A stretch of DNA of 64,000 bases from Microvirga sp. (lineage in GTDB: Bacteria; Pseudomonadota; Alphaproteobacteria; Rhizobiales; Beijerinckiaceae): positions 1 to 64,000 of the forward strand of contig JAQSWQ010000030.1 in the NCBI GenBank assembly GCA_029266525.1, written 5' to 3'. Below the pieces are notes generated by a model. It made no database searches. It saw nothing but the letters and a program-made list of their open reading frames with translations, and was not told the DNA's origin. Below, piece after piece: positions 1 through 36,903 of the stretch. Each line of letters starts with the position of its first letter. Position 1 is the stretch's first letter. Position numbers and translations under genes: made by a program.

Positions 1-105
1 GTTCCTCAGCCGACCACCCGGACCGGGCATGCGTTCCCGGCGCGGGCACCGGCCCCGCCCCACGTCACGACGCCTCATGAGCGCGCCCCTCGGGTGGACA
101 GGACA
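1..105 (-). ncRNA. Candidate structured small RNA, copy B (truncated by window edge)
   Basis: Reverse complement matches 36723-36823 over ~100 bp, including an identical ~55-bp core (CCGGTGCCCGCGCCGGGAACGCATGCCCGGTCCGGGTGGTCGGCTGAGGAA). TTGACA-N18-TAGGCT promoter at 112-141. Confidence 0.5.
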
Positions 106-111
106 GGCAGG

Positions 112-141
112 AGCCTAGGACGAAGTTCCGGGCGTTGTCAA
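112..141 (-). promoter_or_regulatory. Sigma70-like promoter of ncRNA copy B
   Basis: Minus strand TTGACA (136-141), 18-nt spacer, TAGGCT (112-117); same spacing as the copy at 36687. Confidence 0.5.
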
Positions 142-284: not shown

Positions 285-584
285 TCACGCAAGATCGGCA
301 TAGAGGTCGCGCCATTCTGGATTCATTCGCTCGATTAACGCGAGCTTCCACCGGCGCGGCCACTTCTTGATGTTTTTCTCGCGCTGAATGGCGTCGCGCA
401 CATCCGGATAGGCTTCGTAATAGACCAGCAGCTTTATGCCATACTGCTGCGTGAATCCCTCGACGATGCCTTCCTTGTGCTCCCATACGCGCCGCGAAAG
501 ATTATTCGTAACGCCGACATAGAGCGTGCCATTACGCCGGCTCGCAAGGATGTAGACCCAATAGGTCTTCTCGAAGCTCGGCAT
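285..584 (-). CDS. GIY-YIG nuclease family protein
   Basis: 99 aa; WVYILASRRNGTLYVGVTNNLSRRVWEHK is the GIY-YIG motif region. Confidence 0.9.
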   Translation of the reverse strand: MPSFEKTYWVYILASRRNGTLYVGVTNNLSRRVWEHKEGIVEGFTQQYGIKLLVYYEAYPDVRDAIQREKNIKKWPRRWKLALIERMNPEWRDLYADLA

Positions 585-591
585 CGCGATT

Positions 592-1480
592 GGGCAGCGG
601 CCTGGATCGCCGGGTCAAGCCCGGCGATGACAAAGTGGATAAAGCCCAACCTTATCCATTGTCATGCCCGGGCTCGACCCGGGCATCCAGAAACGGCGAC
701 GCGCGTGCAGGCGGCGACACTGGATCGCCGCGTCAAGCCCGGCGATGACAACGTGGATAAAGCCCGACCCTTTCCATTGTCATGCCCGGGCTCGACCCGG
801 GCATCCAGAAACGGCGACGCGCGTGCAGGCGGCGACACTGGATCGCCGGGTCAAGCCCGGCGATGACAAAGTGGATAAAGCCCGACCCTCTCCATTGTCA
901 TGCCCGGGCTCGACCCGGGCATCCAGAGCCGCCGCAGCGCGCGTGCAAGGCGGTGGGGGCTGGATCGCCGGGTCAAGCCCGGCGATGACAAAGTGGATAA
1001 AGCCCAACCTTATCCATTGTCATGCCCGGGCTCGACCCGGGCATCCAGGAATGGGCCCGCGCGTGCAAGCGGTGGGACTGGATCGCCGGGTTCAAGCCCG
1101 GCGATGACAAAGTGGATAAAGCCCGACCCTTTCCATTGTCATGCCCGGGCTCGACCCGGGCATCCAGAAACGGCGACGCGCGTGCAGGTGGCGACACTGG
1201 ATCGCCGGGTCAAGCCCGGCGATGACAAAGTGGATAAAGCCCGACCCTCTCCATTGTCATGCCCGGGCTCGACCCGGGCATCCAGGAATGGGCCCCGCTC
1301 GTGCAAGCGGTGGGGCTGGATCGCCGGGTCAAGCCCGGCGATGACAATGGGGGGTGATAGGACGCCCTGCTTTGTCATGCCCGGGCTTGACCCGGGCATC
1401 CATTCACGGCTCCGCATGTGCAAGCGGTGGGACTGGATCGCCGGGTCAAGCCCGGCGATGACAAGAGAAGTGGCACGCGG
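592..1480. repeat. BIME-like tandem array of alternating palindromic elements, ~118-bp period, 7 full units plus a partial
   Basis: Units begin TGGATCGCCGGGTCAAGCCCGGCGATGACAA near 603, 721, 839, 961, 1079, 1197, 1316 and 1433; each also holds GTCATGCCCGGGCTCGACCCGGGCATCCAG in the opposite orientation. Confidence 0.95.
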
Positions 1481-1515
1481 TGGCATTGTCACGTCCAGGC
1501 TCGGAGTCGGCTTGC

Positions 1516-36686: not shown

Positions 36687-36716
36687 TTGACAATCTCCTG
36701 ATTTTAGTCCTAGATA
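36687..36716 (+). promoter_or_regulatory. Sigma70-like promoter of ncRNA copy A
   Basis: TTGACA (36687-36692), N18, TAGATA (36711-36716). Confidence 0.6.
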
Positions 36717-36722
36717 AGCCCA

Positions 36723-36830
36723 GTTCCGTCCGCCGGGGGACGCTCTCGCGAGGCGTCGTTAGGGTGGGACGGGACCGGTGCCCGCGCCGGGAACGCATGC
36801 CCGGTCCGGGTGGTCGGCTGAGGAAGGGGG
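36723..36830 (+). ncRNA. Candidate structured small RNA, copy A (or trmFO leader)
   Basis: Homologous to 1-105 minus strand over ~100 bp with compensatory changes in two stems; CCGGG-AACGCATG-CCCGG hairpin; 3' end approximate. Confidence 0.5.
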
Positions 36831-36903
36831 ATTTGGCGCGCCTTTTAGATCGCGAGAGGGCTTCCGCTTGAACGCCGCGCTCCGCTCCCGATATGCAAAA
36901 GGT

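Follow-up and report, generated by a model that had tools for sequence, protein, structure and literature searches.

Two homologous segments within the 64,000-nucleotide stretch of DNA analyzed here (the window) probably belong to an undescribed family of dispersed, multicopy, concertedly evolving, and independently transcribed structured-RNA genes of Hyphomicrobiales, which would be SOS controlled in Microvirga and act in trans. A search of open-licence papers found no description of this family. Complete copies are units of 220 to 450 nt, each with a promoter, putatively of the sigma-70 type, that would be followed by the RNA. A first-pass annotation of the window had expected a transcript of ~100 to 150 nt, but complete copies are longer than this, and both of the copies in the window (here, copies A and B) are partial.

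Copy B occupies window positions 1 to 141 on the minus strand, and copy A occupies positions 36687 to 36842 on the plus strand. Both contain a -35 hexamer TTGACA (136..141 in copy B and 36687..36692 in copy A), at a position shared by almost every copy whose 5' end is intact, followed after a spacer of 18 nt by a -10 hexamer (TAGGCT at 112..117 and TAGATA at 36711..36716, respectively), in agreement with the matching promoters (TTGACA-N18-TAGNNN) described in the first-pass annotation. The 5' domains (45..106, minus strand, in copy B; 36721..36782, plus strand, in copy A) match the covariance model R2 (69.5 bits and an E value of 1.4e-9 for copy B; an E value of 6.3e-9 for copy A). These matches include the 5' stem P1 (about 94-104 with 53-63 in copy B; 36723-36731 with 36766-36775 in copy A), the apical hairpin (GGCGC/GCGTC, 83-87 with 69-73; GACGC/GCGTC, 36739-36743 with 36753-36757), and an apical-loop strand (CGAGGG, 87-92, the proposed partner of which is the 3' end of the RNA; CGGGGG, 36734-36739). 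The compensatory drift claimed for the two copies holds: both the outer stem (GTCCTGTCC/GGGCGGGGC versus GTTCCGTCC/GGGACGGGA) and the inner stem (GGCGC/GCGTC versus GACGC/GCGTC) are paired in each copy despite base changes. The core shared by the copies (2..52, minus strand, and 36775..36825, plus strand) is identical, as had been reported, but with 51 nt it is slightly shorter than the ~55 bp given.

Base 1 of the window is also base 1 of the contig, so that copy B is cut at the contig start and its remainder lies beyond the contig; it is probably a normal family member that is only partly visible. In copy A, the core runs directly into GGGGGATTTGGCGCGCC (36826..36842, plus strand) at the junction 36825/36826, and this tail is identical to the 3' tail of the complete type-2 copies L007 and L042. 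Roughly 250 nt are absent at this junction; the middle domains, the 3' hairpin, and the pseudoknot partner of complete copies are all missing from copy A. Judged from its sequence, copy A has kept its promoter intact but has been deleted internally. Elsewhere in the window (600-1500), we observed an intergenic repeat run whose translations read PGLDPGIQ...SSPAMT and which adjoins a GIY-YIG-like reading frame (285-584, minus strand).

The homology between copies A and B is not due to chance. In the genome from which the window derives (4.5 Mb in 135 contigs), a BLAST search with copy A identified 19 places and the covariance model identified 21 copies, while a complete type-2 query identified 14 places, more diverged ones included. 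Since the genome contains no fewer than 21 copies, the two segments are members of a dispersed family and not the products of a simple duplication, as had been supposed. Many contig ends of this assembly coincide with a copy or lie no more than about 190 bp from one, as is expected because repeats break assemblies. The complete genome of Rhizobiales bacterium YIM 77505, which belongs to the window's genus, contains five copies. A family-level scan with the 5'-domain model found 44 positive genomes among 397 (counting a few g12 matches unconfirmed by R2); an order-level scan found 7 among 398, spread over several other families; and a class-level scan of 385 genomes returned the window's genome as the only carrier. 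The g12 matches of model R1 (G068 and G301), which the improved model R2 did not confirm, were dropped, as was a weak BLAST match in G021 that the covariance model did not support.

Within Hyphomicrobiales, at least eight genera carry the family. Its main carrier, identified from named records, is Microvirga. Matches were found in 41 of the 48 Microvirga genomes, with a maximum of 34 copies per genome; G157, a low-copy species, has nine, and several of these genomes carry one or two copies only. The other seven (G086, G284, G211, G368, G363, G137, and G349) yielded no match and provide natural controls for studies of the family's function. This patchy spread, with seven empty Microvirga genomes and several with one or two copies, indicates that the RNA is dispensable.

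The fold comprises a 5' stem (P1), an apical hairpin, a 3' hairpin, and a long-range helix that surrounds one to several hairpins. When 77 distinct 5' domains were aligned by fitting to the covariance model, a procedure that favors the model structure, 98.4% of the cells were paired (39 to 56% in slid controls), and 106 two-sided changes were counted, compared with 19 +/- 5 after shuffling (0 of 500 shuffles were as high). Two-sided changes affected all eight P1 pairs, and the apical hairpin GGCGC-GCUCGCGAG-GCGUC was almost unchanging in the same 77 sequences. A second alignment of 19 compact Microvirga copies, built independently with MAFFT, covered 43 pairs in eight helices, including the long-range helix and the 3' hairpin. 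It showed two-sided changes at 17 pairs versus 10.8 after shuffling (0/500) and 96% pairing versus 35 to 45% when slid, figures that are self-favoring because the structure is the RNAalifold consensus of the identical rows. This covariation upholds the structured RNA proposed from the window alone.

No conserved ORF was found across the copies, and a coded peptide was rejected because a complete ATG ORF is missing from 63% of them. We also rejected an omegaRNA-type RNA of RNA-guided transposons, since the copies have a constant 5' end and a variable guide-like end was not observed. Compensatory changes beyond those of the controls, a promoter of its own (recognized from the consensus only), and the lack of a conserved ORF together characterize the element as a structured noncoding RNA gene. 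The first-pass annotation had put forward a duplicate of 6S RNA for testing, and a long GC-rich stem behind an own promoter would fit this idea. However, Rfam 15 covariance models (6S models included) applied at gathering and relaxed thresholds to the window, the elements of its genome, YIM 77505, and Microvirga detected no relevant family. The fold is branched, with eight helices and a proposed pseudoknot, instead of a single long hairpin opened by a central bubble, and up to 34 copies are present per genome. The covariance-model searches refute the 6S explanation, to which we assign a negligible probability.

Reading the copies by eye across clades, we propose a pseudoknot that links the apical loop to the stretch immediately following the 3' hairpin. 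Its putative strands are CGAGGG/CCCUCG in most copies, CGGGGG/CCCCCG in the type-2 copies L004 and L007 of the window's genome, GGAGGG/CCCUCC in G722, and CACGAGGG/CCCUCGUG in G737. In the RNA so envisaged, P1, which drifts in sequence yet pairs, would be capped by the invariant apical hairpin, and the CGAGGG loop would pair with CCCUCG at the 3' end. The family resembles the GOLLD, ROOL, OLE, and HEARO class of large structured bacterial RNAs in its size of hundreds of nucleotides, branching, pseudoknot, lack of an ORF, and putative own transcription unit. It differs from them in the lack of an Rfam match, its 5 to 34 chromosomal copies per genome, the putative LexA operator of the Microvirga copies, and its absence from the phage and viral collections searched.

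The motif GTTC-N7-GTTC, which is the LexA (SOS) box published for Caulobacter (PMC12700426, PMC6237742), overlaps the -35 hexamer in 113 of 118 promoters, nearly all of them from Microvirga copies, compared with 23 occurrences in the remaining 852 kb of sequence at these loci. Both GTTC words are 96 to 100% conserved, and four spacer bases are variable; because the copies are homogenized, conservation of the box within one species is not independent, and the between-species comparison alone counts. The same motif lies upstream of recA in the window's genome and in three Microvirga genomes (G157, G324, and G388). No LexA box was found at the copies of the window's genome (A and B included), although its recA has one, nor at those of YIM 77505 or of the other non-Microvirga clades seen. 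The predicted LexA control is therefore a trait of Microvirga and not of the family as a whole. In the window's genus, as in G722, the place of the box is held by another recurrent word, the A-rich TGAAAATAATCC. In several other families (L194, L197, L206, L210, L196, and L202), a TTATCCCCGCCC-like word stands at a similar distance from the RNA and is possibly another operator or activator site. In G092 (genus g57), a copy (L347; C1:890027-890091, plus strand) is located immediately upstream of recA.

The genomic sites of the copies are partly fixed. Pairwise comparisons of three Microvirga genomes revealed matching flanks at several sites with orientation kept, and between species pairs, roughly ten shared sites were two-sided and conserved in orientation. 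A site between an erythromycin-esterase-like gene and ettA (putative names, read from translations) was occupied in 11 of the 12 other Microvirga genomes tested, G236 having no copy there. The trmFO site of copy A is copy free in YIM 77505, whose upstream neighborhood also differs; sites may thus also be gained or lost. Identity between copies is 0.93 to 0.95 within species, 0.82 to 0.89 at shared sites between species, and 0.84 to 0.87 for the between-species background. Copies at shared sites are therefore no more alike than random copies from different species, which demonstrates concerted evolution. In G388, the intervals between copies are significantly more even than random (coefficient of variation [CV], 0.52 versus 0.96); the four other genomes tested showed a trend in the same direction that was not significant.

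A non-autonomous mobile repeat (MITE- or SINE-like) that happened to contain a promoter and a structured RNA and depended on a protein encoded elsewhere for its movement would account for the many near-identical copies per genome in unrelated flanks, the lineage-specific sites (e.g., that at trmFO), the 5'-truncated copies L016 and L042, and the patchy distribution. We nevertheless consider this explanation unlikely. Among 67 copies, we found neither target-site duplications (flank similarity of 3.63 versus 3.71 for re-paired flanks) nor terminal inverted repeats, one site is held across a genus, and the two-sided shared sites keep their orientation. All 34 copies of G388 lie on its 4.97-Mb chromosome (C1) and none on the 2.35 Mb of other replicons (32% of the DNA; P of about 2e-6). 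Plasmid, phage, and viral-contig collections yielded no family match, and every P1 pair shows two-sided compensatory change. The fixed sites, the chromosomal restriction, and the conservation of base pairs argue against a pure mobile repeat; a domesticated mobile element is possible. The first-pass annotation favored an RNA over a mobile repeat, and its RNA structure stands, but the contrast was drawn too sharply in view of lineage-specific as well as genus-fixed sites and homogenization within species.

RIME and REP-type repeats of Rhizobiales are likewise dispersed, intergenic, and GC-rich; in comparison, the family described here conserves a promoter, a directional unit, a LexA box, and compensatory structure. 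In two copies of the window's genome, L018 (C134) and L041 (C103), foreign sequence interrupts the element at almost identical positions, following CCGTAC in a hairpin whose loop is cUACGg. The foreign sequences share TTGTACCCAGTTTTGTGCCCAG, as if integrating islands had used the RNA gene as an attachment site.

In many Microvirga copies, homology between copies halts immediately after GCTCTTTGACA, which is identical to the boxA of the 16S leader in YIM 77505 and is often preceded by a hairpin. This sequence is present exactly in 66 of 169 copies and with at most one mismatch in 88 of 169, compared with 0 of 161 control windows, and the type-2 copies L004 and L017 of the window's genome also contain it. 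The boxA part would lie within the transcript. A wider relation to the rRNA leader was rejected, as the 16S leader of YIM 77505 shares boxA only. An rRNA antitermination decoy, in which the 3' boxA would bind NusB-S10 and the SOS-induced RNA would lower rRNA synthesis after damage, is consistent with this enrichment over the controls, with the identity to the leader boxA, and with the hairpin and the abrupt end of homology on either side. Against it, boxA is absent from the YIM 77505 and type-1 copies, other copies terminate in plain T-runs, and some of the boxA-like ends may simply be terminators, to which CTCTTT could belong. We regard the decoy as rather unlikely.

The boxA end would also suit a cis-acting leader or antitermination module (put/nut-like) for the downstream gene, as would the fixed site upstream of ettA, the location of trmFO ~85 nt past copy A, and the co-directional orientation of 43 of 66 downstream genes. 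The remaining 23 genes are convergent (i.e., one third of the copies face a convergent gene), which argues against a pure leader. Moreover, the downstream genes vary, and conservation of the unit is the same at every site, making such a module improbable.

In the trans-acting RNA family that we favor, the LexA operator over the -35 hexamer would allow DNA damage to switch on all Microvirga copies together. Copy number would provide dosage, and gene conversion would keep the copies alike. The product would act in trans as an abundant structured RNA, either as an RNP scaffold or as a protein-titrating RNA with a presumed partner protein. We infer that its molecular job lies in an RNP, in Nus-factor titration, or in an antitermination leader. 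Neither the LexA box, which is absent outside Microvirga in the clades seen, nor boxA, which only some of the copies possess, defines the core function. Like rRNA operons, the family is multicopy, evolves concertedly, and would have boxA in its transcript, but it contains no rRNA sequence, and the YIM 77505 leader is unrelated beyond boxA. Multicopy "sibling" sRNAs (Qrr, LhrC, and CcsR type) are sets of several homologous RNA genes under shared regulation; the present family is far more numerous and larger, has a covarying closed fold, and is homogenized within species. Its closest counterparts in alphaproteobacterial RNAs tied to DNA damage are the 84-nt ChvI-controlled sRNA ChvR and other mitomycin-induced sRNAs of Caulobacter; the mitomycin screen found an SOS box at none of the induced sRNAs (PMC6237742).

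A bolder reading, which we hold with little confidence, is that dozens of near-identical, pseudoknotted RNAs with a boxA end, controlled by LexA, would flood the cell after damage, capture Nus factors, and retune transcription (rRNA synthesis or Rho termination), representing a new class of RNA regulator; the idea is weakened because boxA is not universal. Few RNAs under direct LexA control are known from alphaproteobacteria. Most of Microvirga appears to carry LexA-box copies (up to 34) of one structured RNA, which offers a concrete entry to the use of RNA in the damage response and an unusual bacterial example of a small dispersed RNA gene that evolves in concert. The family may represent a hitherto unrecognized branch of the bacterial response to DNA damage.
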